64,000 nt of DNA from Prevotella sp. (GTDB lineage: Bacteria > Bacteroidota > Bacteroidia > Bacteroidales > Bacteroidaceae). Positions 13,819-33,875 of this stretch are shown in pieces. Made by a program: the position numbers and the translations under genes. The stretch's first letter is position 1. Each line of letters opens with the position of its first letter. The notes below the pieces were generated by a model. It was not told the origin of the DNA. It saw only the letters and a program-made list of their open reading frames with translations, and ran no database searches. The DNA lies in the NCBI GenBank assembly GCA_017554105.1, contig JAFZIY010000017.1:62001-126000 (forward strand), given 5' to 3'.

Positions 13819-13914
13819 GACCCACCTCCATCTCCTCCCCAAGGGAGGAGGGTTTAAACACCTAAAAGTAATCCGACTCCCTTCCCTTCGGGAGGGGATG
13901 GGGGTAGGTTCTTA
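13819..13914. repeat. Inverted doublet of G/C-rich hairpin repeats between trmD and the patatin gene
   Basis: Two copies of a hairpin repeat face each other: the left (13819-13857) contains CTCCTCCCCAAGGGAGGAG, the right (13876-13914) CCCTTCCCTTCGGGAGGGG followed by ATGGGGGTAGG. The doublet fills the whole gap between convergent genes and includes the TAA stop of the patatin gene (13912-13914), so it probably terminates both transcripts. The right copy is closely similar to the element inside the aminopeptidase gene at 15233-15267. Confidence 0.85.
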
Positions 13915-14889: not shown

Positions 14890-16299
14890 ATGTTTAACAA
14901 AGAAGTTTATATAGAGCGCCGCGCACAACTCAAGAAGTTGGTGAAAAGCGGCATAATAGTCTTGTTCGGAAATAACGAGTCGCCTAACAACTATCCATCT
15001 AATGCATATTACCCGTTCAGGCAGGACTCCTCGTTCCTCTATTATTTCGGACAGAAGCGCGACGGACTGGTAGGTGTCATCGATATTGACAACGACAAGG
15101 AATATCTCATCGGCGACGACATCGACATTGAGGACATCGTATGGTATGGATCGGTTGACAGCGTGGCAGATATGGCGGCACAGGTGGGCGTGACCAATAC
15201 CGCCCCGATGAACAAGTTGAAAGAAATTCTTTCTCCCCTCCCCCCGGGAGGGGCTGGGGGTGGGCCTAGTATCCACTTTCTCCCACCCTATCGCCACGAC
15301 ACGAAAATACAGATAATGGATTTGTGGGGCATCCATCCTTCCAAACAGAAGGAGGCGGCTTCACAGCCACTCATCAAAGCCGTCGTGAAGATGCGCGCCA
15401 CGAAGACACCAGAGGAAATTGAGGAACTGGAACGTGCTGTGGAGATTGGCTACAAGATGCACACGACAGCGATGCGAATCACCCGTCCCGGCGTGACCGA
15501 GAAATATGTTGGCGGTCAGGTGGATGGTATCGCTCATTCTTACGGAGCGCAGGTGAGTTTCGCCACTATCTTCTCGCAACATGGTGAGATTATGCACGGC
15601 AATCCGTCGATGGATATTCTCGAAAGCGGACGACTGGTGTTGTGCGATGCCGGTGCCGAAACCATCAACCACTACTGTTCCGACCACACGCGCACCTTCC
15701 CTGTGAATGGCAAGTACACCCAACGTCAACTGGACATCTATCGCATCGTTGAGGAGTGTCACGACTATGTGCTCGATGTGGCGAAGCCTGGTGTGAAATA
15801 CATGGACGTGCACTTTGCCGTTTGCCGCCTGATGACGGAACGCCTGAAGGAGCTGGGACTGATGAAGGGTGACGTTGACGAGGCTGTTGCTGCCGGAGCA
15901 CACGCGATGTTCCTGCCTCACGGACTGGGACACATGATGGGTATGGACGTTCACGATATGGAGGGACTGGGACAGATCTACGTGGGTTTCGACGAGGAGA
16001 CACGCCCCAATCTCGAACAGTTCGGAACCAACTGCCTGCGCATGGGTCGCCGTTTGGAAGAAGGTTTTGTGGTGACCGACGAGCCGGGCATCTACTTCAT
16101 CCCTGCCCTCATCGACGACTGGCGCAAGAGCGGACATTGTGCAGAGTTCCTGAACTTCGACCTGTTGGAAACTTACAAGGACTTCGGTGGCATCCGTATC
16201 GAGGACGACGTGCTGATTACCAAAGACGGCTGCCGCTTCCTCGGCAAGAATCGCATACCTTACCATCCGAAGGATGTGGAAGCCTTCATGGCGAAATAG
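14890..16299 (+). CDS. pepP: Xaa-Pro aminopeptidase (M24B) with an in-frame repeat insertion
   Basis: A 469-residue cytoplasmic metallopeptidase that removes residues before proline. The creatinase-like N-domain is followed by the pita-bread catalytic domain with metal ligands in DAGAETINHYCSDHTRTFP, HGLGHMMGMDVHD, TDEPGIYF and IRIEDDVL. The segment LSPLPPGGAGGGP (about residues 115-127) is encoded by a palindromic repeat (15233-15267) that interrupts the N-domain in frame before SIHFLPPYRHD. The rest of the protein looks intact, so the insertion appears tolerated. The TAG stop at 16297-16299 opens a TTAAGAATTA tract. Confidence 0.94.
   Translation: MFNKEVYIERRAQLKKLVKSGIIVLFGNNESPNNYPSNAYYPFRQDSSFLYYFGQKRDGLVGVIDIDNDKEYLIGDDIDIEDIVWYGSVDSVADMAAQVGVTNTAPMNKLKEILSPLPPGGAGGGPSIHFLPPYRHDTKIQIMDLWGIHPSKQKEAASQPLIKAVVKMRATKTPEEIEELERAVEIGYKMHTTAMRITRPGVTEKYVGGQVDGIAHSYGAQVSFATIFSQHGEIMHGNPSMDILESGRLVLCDAGAETINHYCSDHTRTFPVNGKYTQRQLDIYRIVEECHDYVLDVAKPGVKYMDVHFAVCRLMTERLKELGLMKGDVDEAVAAGAHAMFLPHGLGHMMGMDVHDMEGLGQIYVGFDEETRPNLEQFGTNCLRMGRRLEEGFVVTDEPGIYFIPALIDDWRKSGHCAEFLNFDLLETYKDFGGIRIEDDVLITKDGCRFLGKNRIPYHPKDVEAFMAK
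15233..15267. repeat. Palindromic repeat inserted in frame in pepP
   Basis: CCCCTCCC (15235-15242), CCC loop, GGGAGGGG (15246-15253), followed by the tail CTGGGGGTGGG. About 28 of 33 positions match the right-hand copy at 13876-13914. It is translated as a Pro/Gly-rich stretch. Confidence 0.88.
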
Positions 16300-29208: not shown

Positions 29209-29823
29209 CTATCCGTTCTTCCTACGCAATTTCTCCTGTTCTTCGAGGAAATCAGACACTTGCTCCACAGGACTGCGAGTTACGGCAATGCGACCCGAAC
29301 GGGTATATTGCAACACGCAACCCAACTTGTCGAGGGCGAAATAAAGGTCGGTAATCTCTTCTGTCTTGCCTGAAAGCATCACGGAACAGAACGTGGGATT
29401 CACCTCCATTATATGTGCATCGGCACGACGCACGAGGCGAGAAATCTCAGGATTCTCAAGAACCACCGATGTGGCAAGCTTGTAAAGACCCACCTCGCGG
29501 ATAAATAACTGGTCATCAGTATAATAGCTCGCCTTTATCACATCTATCTTCTTCTCTATCTGCTTGGTAATTTTTACTATCTGATCCTCGTCGCTATAGG
29601 CCGTGATAGTATATTTATGTACCCCGGGAATGCTTGAAGCCGAAACGTTAAGACTCTCGATATTCACCTGTCGACGAGTGAATACAGCAGTAATCTGATT
29701 CAGAATACCCGCAATGTTTTCCGAATAAACAAGTAACGTATATAGCGTTCTGCCCTCTGAGCCCCCTGAGTTAGGGGGTTGGGGATCTGAACGACCGATT
29801 TGTATTTCTTTTTTCTCTTTCAT
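29209..29823 (-). CDS. ilvH: Acetolactate synthase small (regulatory) subunit
   Basis: A 204-residue ACT-domain protein that binds valine and controls IlvB. The ACT domain starts at RTLYTLLVYSENIAGILNQI and is followed by the usual C-terminal part (EIRTREVG-like IREVGLYKLAT). The first 25 residues are unusual: SDPQPPNSGGSEG is encoded by a palindromic repeat (29761-29793), so the start region has been rebuilt by a repeat insertion. The ATG at 29823 is preferred to the one at 29835; neither has a strong Shine-Dalgarno. Forms an operon with ilvB upstream and the thioesterase downstream. Confidence 0.93.
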   Translation of the reverse strand: MKEKKEIQIGRSDPQPPNSGGSEGRTLYTLLVYSENIAGILNQITAVFTRRQVNIESLNVSASSIPGVHKYTITAYSDEDQIVKITKQIEKKIDVIKASYYTDDQLFIREVGLYKLATSVVLENPEISRLVRRADAHIMEVNPTFCSVMLSGKTEEITDLYFALDKLGCVLQYTRSGRIAVTRSPVEQVSDFLEEQEKLRRKNG

Positions 29824-29888
29824 AATATATAGCATTTAGCAGGCAGTCCTTAAATTGTTCAGACCCCCTGACCCCTGACCCAGGGGGT
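29761..29888. repeat. ORF-less inverted repeat pair at the ilvB/ilvH junction
   Basis: Copy R3 (29761-29793) matches the DUF559 cassette end at 31590-31622 at 30 of 33 positions in the same orientation; copy R4 (29856-29888) matches the other end at 26 of 33 positions in the opposite orientation. They enclose 62 bp that hold the ilvH start codon. R4 begins 4 bp after the ilvB stop. The arrangement resembles a non-autonomous derivative of the DUF559 cassette. Confidence 0.88.
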
Positions 29889-29891
29889 AAT

Positions 29892-31649
29892 TTATATCTC
29901 CAACATCATCTCGTCAACACTCATTCCAGGAGGTGTCATCGGCAGAACGTCGTCTTCTTCGAGTATAGCACACTCCATGATGAATGGTCCATCGGTAGCA
30001 AGCATCTTCTCAACGGCAGCATGAAGGTTCTCCCTTTGAGTCACTGCCTGATACGGAATACCATATGCCTTGGCTATCTGCTCATAGCATGGATTAAGCA
30101 TCTTGGTGAACGACTTGCGCTTCTGCCAGAACATATCTTGCCACTGGCGAACGTTACCGAGGTAATTGTTGTTGAGAAGTATCATCTTAACTGGCGACTG
30201 TTGCTCCATAATGGTGCCCAGTTCCTCAATACACATCTGGAAACCTCCATCACCCATGAAGCACACAACAGTACGGTCAGGAGCTCCGAAGGTGGCACCG
30301 ATGGCAGCAGGCATACCGAATCCCATCGTACCAAGTCCACCACTGGTGGCTATCGAACGATTATTGTTATACTTGAAATAGCGTGTTGCGAACAGTTGGT
30401 TTTGTCCAACGTCGGTCACTAGCACGGCTTCTCCCTTGGTGGCCTCGGCAACAGCATTCACCACCTCGCCCATCAGGAGCATTCCCTCCTTTGGATGGAT
30501 TGCCGGCTCGATGACTTTCTCGCGCTCGCGTTCTTGCAATGGACGGAACGATTCTATCCATTCTGAGTGGTCGTTCTTGTCTATCAGCGCTGTAATTGCA
30601 GGTAACGACTCCTTGCAGTCGGCAATTACGGCCACGTCGGTCTTCACGTTCTTGTCTATCTCACTGCGGTCGATGTCCAGATGTATCACCTTAGCCTGCT
30701 TGGCGTAAGTCTTCAAAGAACCTGTCACTCGGTCACTGAAACGCATTCCGATGGCTATCAGCACATCGCATTCCTGCTCTTTCATGTTAGGTGCATAGTT
30801 GCCGTGCATACCCAGCATACCCATGTTCAGTGGATGGTTTGAAGGCAATGCCGAGAGACCAAGCATCGTTCTGCCTGCTGGAATGTTGGCTTTCTCGAGG
30901 AATGCCAGCAGTTCTTGCTGTGCATTACCGAGTTCCACGCCTTGTCCGACAAGTGCAAAAGGCTTCTTGGCAGCATTTATCAGTTCCGCAGCCTGACGCA
31001 CGGCATCCTCTTTTAATTTTGGATAAGCAACGTAAGAACGCACAAAATCAACCTTCTTCGGCTGGAACTCAACCATCTCTGTCTGCGCATTCTTAGGGAA
31101 GTCAAGCACTACAGGGCCTGGACGACCACTTCGGGCTATATAAAAAGCACGGCTGACAGCCCATGCAATGTCCTCGGCATGGCGTATCTGATAGCTCCAC
31201 TTGCTTATAGGCTGGGCGACACCAACAAGGTCAACCTCCTGGAAAGCATCCGTTCCTAATGCCCCGATGGCCACCTGACCGGCAATAACCACAATCGGAG
31301 TGGAGTCCATCATGGCATCGGCAACACCTGTGAGGGTATTTGTCGCACCAGGACCACTGGTCACAATGGCCACACCGACTTCGCCACTCACACGGGCATA
31401 GCCCTCTGCGGCATGTGTGGCACCTTGCTCATGGCGAACAAGTATATGGTCGAAGCATTTCTTCTCGCCTCGAGTATAATCGTAAAGGGCATCGTAAACT
31501 GGCATTATCGCACCACCAGGATAGCCGAAGATGGTCTTCACGCCCTCTGCCTGCAATGCACGCATCAATGCCTCTGAGCCTGTTATCTTGCCCCCTAAGT
31601 TAGGGGGTTGGGGGTCTGAACAGTTTTTATTATGTTTTATCTGACTCAT
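29892..31649 (-). CDS. ilvB: Acetolactate synthase large (catalytic) subunit
   Basis: A 585-residue thiamine-diphosphate enzyme that condenses pyruvate (or pyruvate plus 2-oxobutanoate). Seen are IFGYPGGAIMPVYDAL with the catalytic Glu region HEQGATHAAEGYARVSG, SGPGATNTLTG, and the TPP/Mg site GDGGFQMCIEEL ... NNNYLGNVRQW. The ATG at 31649 is chosen because it overlaps the DUF559 stop in ATGA (31649-31646). Residues from the start up to the family's own beginning (KITGSEALMRALQ) include [10 protein letters not shown], encoded by the repeat at 31590-31622. So the cassette supplies the start codon and about 20 extra residues. Confidence 0.95.
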   Translation of the reverse strand: MSQIKHNKNCSDPQPPNLGGKITGSEALMRALQAEGVKTIFGYPGGAIMPVYDALYDYTRGEKKCFDHILVRHEQGATHAAEGYARVSGEVGVAIVTSGPGATNTLTGVADAMMDSTPIVVIAGQVAIGALGTDAFQEVDLVGVAQPISKWSYQIRHAEDIAWAVSRAFYIARSGRPGPVVLDFPKNAQTEMVEFQPKKVDFVRSYVAYPKLKEDAVRQAAELINAAKKPFALVGQGVELGNAQQELLAFLEKANIPAGRTMLGLSALPSNHPLNMGMLGMHGNYAPNMKEQECDVLIAIGMRFSDRVTGSLKTYAKQAKVIHLDIDRSEIDKNVKTDVAVIADCKESLPAITALIDKNDHSEWIESFRPLQEREREKVIEPAIHPKEGMLLMGEVVNAVAEATKGEAVLVTDVGQNQLFATRYFKYNNNRSIATSGGLGTMGFGMPAAIGATFGAPDRTVVCFMGDGGFQMCIEELGTIMEQQSPVKMILLNNNYLGNVRQWQDMFWQKRKSFTKMLNPCYEQIAKAYGIPYQAVTQRENLHAAVEKMLATDGPFIMECAILEEDDVLPMTPPGMSVDEMMLEI

Positions 31650-32077
31650 TTCCTTTGAAATCTTAAGTTCCAATTATTATCGTTTATATACCTCCTTATT
31701 CTTTCCAAGACATCCGGCAAATCGTTTTTTATCTCGTCATTTGTGAAACGAATAACTTTTATTCCGTTGCTTTCTAAAAACTCCGTCCTGTCTTCGTCTT
31801 TTTCCTGCACATAATCTGTCTGATGTATCTCTCCATCAACTTCTATGCATAGTTTCAGAACTGGACAATAGAAATCCATTATGTAGGGGCCGTAACCATG
31901 TTGTCTTCTGAACCGCCAACCATCTAACTGTCTTCTGCTTAAATGTTTCCATAGCATCCTTTCACTTGGAGTCATATCATGTCGAAGCAATTGACGGTAC
32001 TCCTTATTATGAGGCTGGTTGGAAAAGTTCATGGTTTCTGCTATTGTTCAGACCCCCAACCCCCTAACTTAGGGGGC
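31590..32077. mobile_element. Candidate DUF559 cassette with perfect 33-bp inverted termini
   Basis: The left end 31590-31622 and the right end 32045-32077 are exact reverse complements over 33 bp. Each end contains a hairpin (CCCCCTAA / TTAGGGGG) followed by TTGGGGGTCTGAACA towards the inside. Between them lies only the DUF559 gene, which starts 13 bp inside the right end. The right end contains the ilvD stop codon and the left end is read in frame as the start of IlvB. No target duplication was seen. Confidence 0.82.
31646..32032 (-). CDS. DUF559 (Vsr-like, PD-(D/E)xK) endonuclease-domain protein
   Basis: A 128-residue protein of the DUF559 family, related to very-short-patch-repair endonucleases. 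Candidate catalytic residues are Asp53 in IMDFYCP and Glu64-x-Asp66 in CIEVDGEIH, with the conserved TPSERMLWKHLR-like helix (Glu24) and the C-terminal GIKVIRFTNDEI. There is no partner domain. It lies inside the inverted-repeat cassette, between ilvD and ilvB on the same strand, and its TGA overlaps the ilvB start in ATGA. A role in moving or maintaining the flanking repeats is a hypothesis; the family has no established function. Confidence 0.9.
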   Translation of the reverse strand: MNFSNQPHNKEYRQLLRHDMTPSERMLWKHLSRRQLDGWRFRRQHGYGPYIMDFYCPVLKLCIEVDGEIHQTDYVQEKDEDRTEFLESNGIKVIRFTNDEIKNDLPDVLERIRRYINDNNWNLRFQRK

Positions 32078-33875
32078 TAAGCATCCTCACCCCACCCTTA
32101 TCAGCAGAAGACACACTCTGGGCATAAGCACGGAGAGCCTTCGAGACGGTACGGTTTCGCTTCAACGGCTGCTGCGGACGGGCTGCAAGCTCCTCATCGG
32201 AAAGTTTCACGTTGATGCTTCGGCTTGGTATGTCAATCTCAATGATGTCGCCATCCTTTATCTTACCGATGTTTCCGCCAGAGGCTGCCTCAGGCGAGAT
32301 GTGTCCGATACTGAGTCCACTCGTACCGCCAGAGAATCGTCCGTCGGTAATCAGAGCGCACTCCTTGCCAAGGTGCATTGACTTAATGTAAGACGTAGGA
32401 TAAAGCATTTCCTGCATGCCCGGTCCGCCCTTGGGACCCTCGTGTGTAATAACGACACAGTCACCACTCTTCACCTTGCCGCCAAGAATGCCATCACAGG
32501 CATCTTCCTGAGAGTCGAAGACAACGGCAGGACCTTCGAAGTGCCACAGGCTCTCATCCACACCGGCAGTCTTCACAACACAACCGTCCTGGGCGATGTT
32601 GCCGAAGAGCACAGCCAGTCCGCCATCCTTGGTATAAGCATGCTCAAGGTCACGAATGCAACCATTTGCACGGTCCTTATCAAGTTCGCCCCACTGAGCA
32701 TCCTGACTGCCCATCTCTGTGGAGAAGCGGTTGCCAGGAGCGGTTTGATAGATGCGGTTTGCCTCCTCATCGATATCATCTTTCATTATGTCATACTTCT
32801 CGAGTTGTTCACCGAGAGTCTTGCCATCGACACGCTTACAGTCCTTGTTTATCAGACCACCCTTGGCAAGTTCGTTGATGATGCCAAGTATTCCACCTGC
32901 ACGACCACACTCCTGCACACTGTACTTCTGTGTGTTTGGAGCCAGTTTACACAGGCAAGGAGTCTTGCGGCTCAGTTCGTCGATATCGTTCATGGTGAAG
33001 TTCGCACCAGCCTCCTGTGCCACCGCGAGCAAGTGGAGCACGGTATTGGTAGAACCACCCATTGCGATGTCGAGCGTCATTGCATTGAGGAAAGCGTCAC
33101 GTGTGGCTATATTACGAGGCAGAACGCTCTCGTCTCCATCCTCATAATATGCTAAGGCGTTCTTAACTATCTGACGTGCCGCATCGCGGAAGAGCTGCAC
33201 TCTATTCTTATGTGTAGCCAATATTGTTCCGTTTCCAGGCAGGGAGAGACCGATAGCCTCGGTCAGTGAGTTCATGGAATTTGCCGTGAACATGCCCGAA
33301 CACGAACCACATCCAGGACAGGCGCAGCCTTCTATCTCTGCCATCTCATCGTCACTGACACTCGGGTCGGCACCTTTAACCATTGCTGTGATAAGGTCGG
33401 CATTCTCACCGCGCCACCTGCCAGCCTCCATCGGACCGCCAGAGCAGAACACGGCAGGGATGTTAAGGCGCATCGCGGCCATCAACATACCAGGTGTAAC
33501 CTTGTCGCAGTTGGATATACATATCATCGCATCAGCCTTGTGTGCATTCACCATATACTCCACCGAGTCGGCAATGATATCGCGAGAAGGCAGTGAATAG
33601 AGCATTCCATCATGCCCCATGGCTATTCCGTCGTCAATAGCGATGGTATTGAATTCTGCCGCATAGCATCCCATGCGCTCAATCTCCTCGCGCACTATCT
33701 GTCCTATTTCATGTAGATGAGTGTGTCCTGGTACGAACTGAGTAAACGAGTTTACGACTGCTATGATTGGTTTCCCAAACTGTTCACGCTTCATTCCAGT
33801 GGCCACCCACAGTGCACGGGCACCTGCCATTCTCCTTCCTTCGGTGCAAACAGCACTTCTTAACTGATGTTTCAT
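32064..33875 (-). CDS. ilvD: Dihydroxy-acid dehydratase
   Basis: A 603-residue iron-sulfur dehydratase of valine/isoleucine synthesis, first gene of the ilv operon. Cysteine ligands are visible in [30 protein letters not shown], and the family block [21 protein letters not shown]. It is of usual length. The last codons (LSPLS and TAG) come from the right end of the DUF559 cassette, so the native stop has been replaced. A TAACTTTG promoter lies 33 bp upstream. Confidence 0.96.

Follow-up and report, generated by a model that had tools for sequence, protein, structure and literature searches.

A DUF559 nuclease gene between inverted REP-type hairpins in the ilv operon of Prevotella: a candidate minimal mobile element

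Introduction

In REPIN-RAYT systems a small nuclease gene lies between inverted repetitive extragenic palindromic (REP) hairpins, gene-less inverted pairs of these hairpins are dispersed over the genome, enzyme and repeat are specific to each other, and the enzyme gene is often inherited in place (PMC3733652 in its accessible part, otherwise general knowledge). The enzyme there is a Y1 HUH tyrosine transposase, the REP-associated tyrosine transposase (RAYT), and the foot of the hairpin carries a GTAG tag on its 5' side. We analysed a window of 64,000 nucleotides from a Prevotella genome (GenBank assembly GCA_017554105.1, contig JAFZIY010000017.1, positions 62,001 to 126,000, forward strand), in which a 488-bp element with a single DUF559 gene between inverted hairpin repeats occupies the ilvD-ilvB interval of the ilv operon. 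This element and its kin share the four features above. They differ from REPIN-RAYT in their enzyme, predicted to be a Vsr-like PD-(D/E)XK nuclease, and in the presence of the DUF559 gene itself, in frame, inside host genes; the Y1 genes sampled in the genus carry repeats other than those of DUF559. The GTAG tag is absent from the repeat family of the window, and in three other DUF559-linked families (L032, L040 and L046) GTAG stands 3' of the hairpin and is not conserved.

Other described systems share single features with this locus. REPs tagged with CGTC, which include dRS3 of Neisseria and RPE-4/6 of Rickettsia, have been reported without a dedicated transposase, and Rickettsia palindromic elements and other intragenic REPs are, like DUF559 units, in-frame palindromic insertions in protein genes; they encode only short peptides, whereas DUF559 units also insert a nuclease domain of about 100 residues (PMC3733652, in the portion available). 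Homing endonucleases of the EDxHD or Vsr type, such as I-Bth0305I, have the same fold as DUF559 proteins and a distant sequence similarity to them, but are linked to introns and a defined target (PMC12350094 in part, otherwise general knowledge), whereas DUF559 genes have hairpins in inverted orientation at their ends and gene-less copies elsewhere in the genome. VsrA of Caulobacter, of the same Pfam family as the gene of the window, is responsible for the DNA-damage response seen when a cytosine methyltransferase is missing and is regarded as a putative repair enzyme of the Vsr type; the accessible part of that account does not mention hairpin ends (PMC12907096). A sequence-only reading of the window pointed to no described system of the present kind, and our literature search likewise found no DUF559-hairpin system among the titles and abstract openings that it covered, most subscription journals and bioRxiv lying outside its scope.

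Here we compare the element with other DUF559 loci of the genus and beyond. Our analyses suggest that it is probably a hairpin-bounded mobile unit, whose nuclease would act on a REP family of its own.

Results

Structure of the element

The terminal arms of the element are 33 nt long, 100% complementary and 422 nt apart, and the only gene that they enclose is DUF559, whose product matches PF04480 at 113 bits, far above the Pfam cut-off of 20.6 (E 8e-33). Each arm consists of a hairpin, placed outside, and a tail, placed inside. The right arm contains the stop codon of ilvD. The stop of DUF559 and the start of IlvB share the sequence ATGA, and IlvB then begins with 20 residues that end in the translation of the arm, so that the left arm supplies the IlvB N-terminus (Table 1). 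The sequence-only reading had proposed exact inverted copies around DUF559 alone, each a hairpin with a tail, had placed the ilvD stop in the right end and the start of IlvB in the left, and had seen the ATGA coupling; the coordinates and the Pfam match bear it out throughout. Beyond that reading, we find a gene-less copy in the same operon, between ilvB and ilvN, and matches dispersed over the genome. The left arm of the gene-less copy codes for part of the IlvN N-terminus, and the copy is missing from the ilvB-ilvN junction of a relative, G028.

With up to three mismatches allowed, the hairpin core gave six strand-wise matches at three places, against a mean of 0.05 and a maximum of 2 in shuffled sequences. 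The calculated DNA folding of a single arm is only modest (-6.6 to -6.7 kcal/mol, z -1.2 to -1.9). A known RNA family was ruled out as the identity of the unit, there being no Rfam match across positions 29600-32200, and a classical DDE insertion sequence was rejected, the gene between the arms being DUF559 with no DDE transposase gene there.

Inverted repeats around other DUF559 genes

DUF559 occurs in at least 87 of 150 genomes of the genus, and the source genome (G000) has five such genes. For 93 loci, read from at least about 150 DUF559 places listed in the genus, we computed a score for the strongest inverted repeat formed between the two 250-bp flanks; L030, which is truncated, was left out. 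The score reached 20 at 69 loci and 14 at 79, with a median of 27, whereas among 260 control open reading frames (ORFs) drawn from 20 regions in these genomes three reached 20 and four reached 14 (median 8); one of those three is itself a REP-like pair (L179), and none of the 53 small control ORFs reached 14. When the left flank of one locus was paired with the right flank of another (554 mismatched pairs), 36 pairs (6.5%) reached 20. Most arms combine a C/G-rich hairpin with a tail; the hairpin lies on the outer side at some loci, as it does in the window, and on the inner side at others. At L003, L026 and L042 some arms have four G-runs on one strand (as in GGGGAGGGG..GGGGTGGGG), which could form a G-quadruplex besides the hairpin.

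The association recurs outside the genus. In a plasmid collection, 14 of 48 records were scored with 300-bp flanks (Alphaproteobacteria, Deinococcus, cyanobacteria and Neisseria) and ten of these reached 20, while none of 112 control ORFs from three of the same records, all high-GC, reached 14. A second search, with a Novosphingobium DUF559 protein as query, returned 61 loci, mostly from Alphaproteobacteria but also, going by record titles, from Planctomycetota, Chloroflexi, Verrucomicrobia, Kiritimatiellae, Gallionella, Kerfeldbacteria, one Prevotella and others; 38 of the 57 scorable loci reached 20 (median 25), and 570 shuffles never exceeded 13. Repeats are thus present around other DUF559 genes, and the association of DUF559 with hairpins, together with its specificity, is solid. 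One Neisseria gene (L211), which by eye agrees with the stretch of the structure 3HRL, is flanked by near-repeats of about 100 bp in direct orientation that end in a CCCGTC-footed hairpin.

Repeat sequence and number follow the DUF559 clade

Protein identity and repeat similarity were compared by a Mantel test over the 71 of 93 loci with a score of at least 14 and a recognised frame, a result thus conditional on having repeats. Across 2434 between-genome pairs the correlation was r=0.583, against a maximum of 0.110 in 1000 permutations. The seven proteins closest to that of the window (56-61% identity) all have the window repeat, and the next (51%) does not. Defined by a DUF559 match at E<=1e-38, the window clade is present in nine of the 150 genomes, with a broken copy in G028; clade members are 54-61% identical to the protein of the window. 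Counted with one pattern and up to two mismatches, any window-type repeat occurs in 31 of the 150 genomes, and at least three occur in 9/9 clade genomes versus 8/141 others (Fisher 3e-10, which is not a clean probability as the genomes are related). In the clade genomes they often form gene-less inverted pairs resembling REPINs.

These results bear on whether DUF559 genes are passengers, captured by REP or REPIN elements that another enzyme, for example a Y1 transposase (RAYT), moves. Such an enzyme is at hand, with a Y1_Tnp match in 87/150 genomes of the genus, G000 included, and close DUF559 genes are mostly inherited in place (29/35 pairs). However, five of 20 Y1 loci sampled in the genus scored at least 20, with repeats whose sequence belongs to another type; G149 has 35 window repeats and no Y1 match, as is also the case in the less complete G055 (16 repeats) and G039 (3); and a passenger would not account for a repeat sequence that follows the DUF559 clade. 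In view of the other repeats at sampled Y1 genes and the repeat-rich genomes without a Y1 match we reject a RAYT as mobiliser, and we regard capture by another enzyme in general as improbable. It is most likely, judging from these comparisons, that DUF559 rather than another enzyme acts on the repeats. The sequence-only reading had cast DUF559, within a minimal selfish element, in a role like that of a RAYT, and the co-variation of repeat and protein, the clade-linked repeat number and the different repeats at Y1 genes lend support to that proposal.

The Y1 (RAYT-like) genes L316, L318, L320, L322 and L335 have paired repeats of their own (e.g. CCCCGAAGGGG, AGGGGCATCGCCCCT and CAGGGCAACGCCCTG), and two REP systems hence coexist in the genus.

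Empty sites and dispersed copies

We read 30 ilvD-ilvB junctions, 24 from the same genus and six from other genera. The element was found only in G000 and, broken, in G028 among the 24, and in none of the six, so that vertical retention of the gene in all relatives, the alternative against which the sequence-only reading was set, is not what the junctions show. One junction (L061) is longer yet lacks the element; L056 has a single hairpin of another family, and L082, from another genus, has two hairpins. In G028 (C36:261855-262237) the DUF559 copy at the ilv site matches in two pieces with stops, one arm has diverged, and four matching repeats remain in the genome.

Members of the window clade occupy seven different neighbourhoods. 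Besides ilv, these are mlaE/ABC, LutB/LdhH, a Na/H exchanger (two genomes), a 3-keto-5-aminohexanoate cleavage enzyme with a threonate kinase, an aldo-keto reductase with a pyridoxamine kinase, and ABC-F, several of these NCBIfam names resting on matches below the cut-off.

Scanning the 3.1-Mb source genome for the hairpin and tail, with up to three mismatches, gave 18 dispersed matches, two of them the arms of the window element, versus one for a control pattern. The ten gene-less inverted pairs that we measured have their hairpins outside and tails inside in the manner of REPINs; nine span 108-128 bp and the tenth 197 bp. L011 and L013 appear to be single copies. For seven of the ten pairs an empty site was found in at least one of the relatives G028, G025, G034 and G019, at 74-85% identity.

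Such copies bear on a homing-type account, in which the nuclease cuts an empty target and break repair copies the unit in, the hairpins serving recombination or termination and remaining uncut. The second-best fold and profile match of the window protein is indeed the homing endonuclease I-Bth0305I, and two insertions into MetH, in different genera, lie at about the same place (L197 and L202). However, the sites are diverse, positions within leucyl-tRNA synthetase (LeuRS) differ, and one clade spans different operons rather than one conserved target; homing does not predict gene-less inverted pairs at many unrelated sites, and the terminal repeats co-vary with the enzyme. We consider homing very unlikely.

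Insertion into host genes

At several loci the host protein resumes after the DUF559 domain, as judged with NCBIfam and Pfam: MetH (the two loci above), LeuRS (L140, L184 and L208), MazG (L033), an ABC-F ATPase (L041), HsdR (L302) and MetG (L303). N-terminal fusions were found with IspF (L005), guanylate kinase (L119) and an amino-acid-kinase protein (L048). By open frame alone, a long host frame stands on both sides of DUF559 at 5/93 genus loci, 10/26 loci of a phylum-wide set (biased to top scores) and 4/59 further loci. G226 and G253 are both given as 100% complete, and in neither does any LeuRS other than the interrupted one exceed the family cut-off; on the profile the LeuRS insertions lie at about 233-238, 378 and 470-484. 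In G000 and further relatives the ABC-F gene runs through without interruption, providing an empty site, and the insert in L041 removes no visible host residues.

DUF559 is also joined without a frame change to a downstream reading frame of 165-230 residues at fourteen loci (L005, with IspF, L031, L035, L037, L049, L051, L052, L105, L106, L136, L137, L141, L150 and L160), several of which share flanks and look inherited in place.

The nuclease

The AlphaFold2 model of the DUF559 protein has a pLDDT of 84. Its best Foldseek match is 3HRL, a DUF559 protein of N. gonorrhoeae, and its second is I-Bth0305I (TM 0.75 by target); E-values were 8e-8 for 3HRL and 2.5e-4 for 3R3P, with E. coli Vsr matching weakly (1CW0 0.06, 1VSR 0.08). 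Sequence searches agree on the first two, and the protein also matches the family MTES_1575, below the Pfam cut-off. In alignments of 37 and 41 DUF559 sequences, E24, D53, E64, D66, H70 and D79 are invariant, residues which we take to be catalytic from what is known of Vsr. On the model, the fold is of the Vsr/EDxHD PD-(D/E)XK type with conserved acidic and histidine residues.

A nuclease of this kind might instead belong to the host, processing palindromes in hairpin or mismatch repair and clustering with them by local recombination, with no mobility of its own. The DUF559 protein VsrA of Caulobacter has been proposed as a repair enzyme (PMC12907096, as far as accessible), the fold weakly resembles Vsr (E 0.06-0.08), and some copies, in E. 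coli and Lelliottia, lack paired ends. Against this, the gene stands at different places with its own ends, in operons and in host genes, relatives have empty sites, and clade-specific repeats are unexpected for a housekeeping repair gene. A host repair function seems to us unlikely.

Table 1. Coordinates of the DUF559 element, its parts and the neighbouring ilv genes within the window.
Feature	Position	Strand	Remarks
DUF559 element, 488 bp, in ilvD-ilvB interval	31590..32077	-	From inverted-repeat scan and empty junctions in relatives
Left terminal inverted repeat	31590..31622	+	Hairpin 31591-31607 outside, tail GGGGGTCTGAACA inside; translated as IlvB N-terminus
Right terminal inverted repeat	32045..32077	-	Tail inside, hairpin 32060-32076 outside; contains ilvD stop (TAG, 32064-32066)
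DUF559 (PF04480) nuclease gene	31646..32032	-	128 aa; predicted Vsr-like fold
ATGA overlap	31646..31649	-	DUF559 stop and IlvB start
ilvD	32064..33875	-	Host gene; last codons and stop within right arm
ilvB	29892..31649	-	Host gene; first 20 codons within element
ilvN	29209..29835	-	Host gene; N-terminus partly encoded by gene-less copy
REPIN-like gene-less copy	29761..29888		Two inverted arms of the window repeat family, between ilvB and ilvN

Further repeats were noted in passing. A hairpin pair of another family lies at 13820-13909 of the window (ACCCACCTCCAT... / ...ATGGGGGTAGGT), between a putative trmD and a patatin-like gene, both read from the sequence, and a single hairpin repeat at 15233-15265 is in frame in a putative aminopeptidase-P gene, translated as SPLPPGGAGGGP. 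Elsewhere in the source genome (C4:63201-63229, or 1501-1529 of L013), a single window-type repeat lies at a probable hisA-hisF junction, the gene names having been read by eye.

Discussion

The best reading of these comparisons is that the system works like REPIN-RAYT with an unrelated enzyme. A single gene for a Vsr-like PD-(D/E)XK nuclease between two inverted REP-type hairpin ends would constitute a minimal mobile element. DUF559 would recognise both parts of an end, hairpin and tail, the substrate probably being either a single-stranded hairpin at the replication fork or a cruciform, and would cut each end at its foot. This would allow copying to new sites, rarely of the full element and more often of gene-less inverted pairs, and host replication and repair would complete the insertion. 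The ends being translatable, insertions would be tolerated in operons, at gene ends and in frame within essential genes.

Several observations weigh against this interpretation. Enzymes of the PD-(D/E)XK type hydrolyse DNA without a covalent intermediate, which leaves the joining step without a known enzyme. The score stays below 14 at 14 of the 93 genus loci, and mismatched pairs reach 14 in 19.5% of cases, owing to the resemblance among many repeat families. The signal weakens across the phylum, with 13 of 29 loci at 14 or more and five at 20 or more, in a set that comprised top hidden Markov model scores only and had no gene control. The E. coli and Lelliottia loci, two plasmid-collection records read separately, have no paired repeats (0/2), only hairpins of the type on one side, and one of the 38 high scorers of the second search (L293) is not a hairpin. 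Of the eight genomes with three or more repeats and no clade member, six are less than 90% complete; missing sequence does not excuse G071 (93%) and G116 (99% complete), and G111 and G120 have no DUF559 among the matches listed. At five G000 pairs (L012, L016, L019, L021 and L023) the flanks match G028 as separate pieces, and these sites may therefore be filled. Among 35 close DUF559 pairs compared, 29 have the same flanks and six have different ones, so the DUF559 gene itself moves seldom. Finally, no clear target-site duplication was seen at the empty sites, which are only about 74-85% identical to the filled ones.

The CGTC-tagged REPs offer a further comparison. Intragenic copies are known both for them and for DUF559-linked repeats, and by eye a CGTC or TGTC foot stands beside the hairpin in DUF559-linked repeats of S. 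meliloti (L212), Qipengyuania (L213), Novosphingobium (L217) and Neisseria (L211). That superfamily has a CGTC foot, a stem of 8-9 bp starting with AT and a CCA tail, whereas the window family is without the CGTC foot. Beside the DUF559 loci scanned, no classical CGTC repeat, with an ATTCCC stem and a CGTC foot, was found, and one unrelated ATTCC match occurred (L143). The link of DUF559 to CGTC REPs is hence a lead, not a membership. A wider proposal is that DUF559 proteins are the mobilising enzymes of a REP/REPIN superfamily over many phyla, separate from RAYTs and possibly including CGTC repeats, in which read-through units allow the nuclease to sit in frame within essential proteins such as LeuRS; we hold this proposal to be evenly balanced between true and false.

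Were the proposed explanation true, bacteria would have a second, unrelated class of enzyme that drives REP-type repeats, and a role would be found for the numerous genes known solely by the annotation DUF559 or 'endonuclease domain-containing protein', which could not simply be taken as mismatch-repair Vsr proteins. It would provide a candidate answer to the reported transposase gap of some REP families and an origin for the proline/glycine-rich peptides inserted into bacterial proteins. It would also describe a mobile element whose ends and gene, being translatable in frame, let it tolerate insertion in essential genes.

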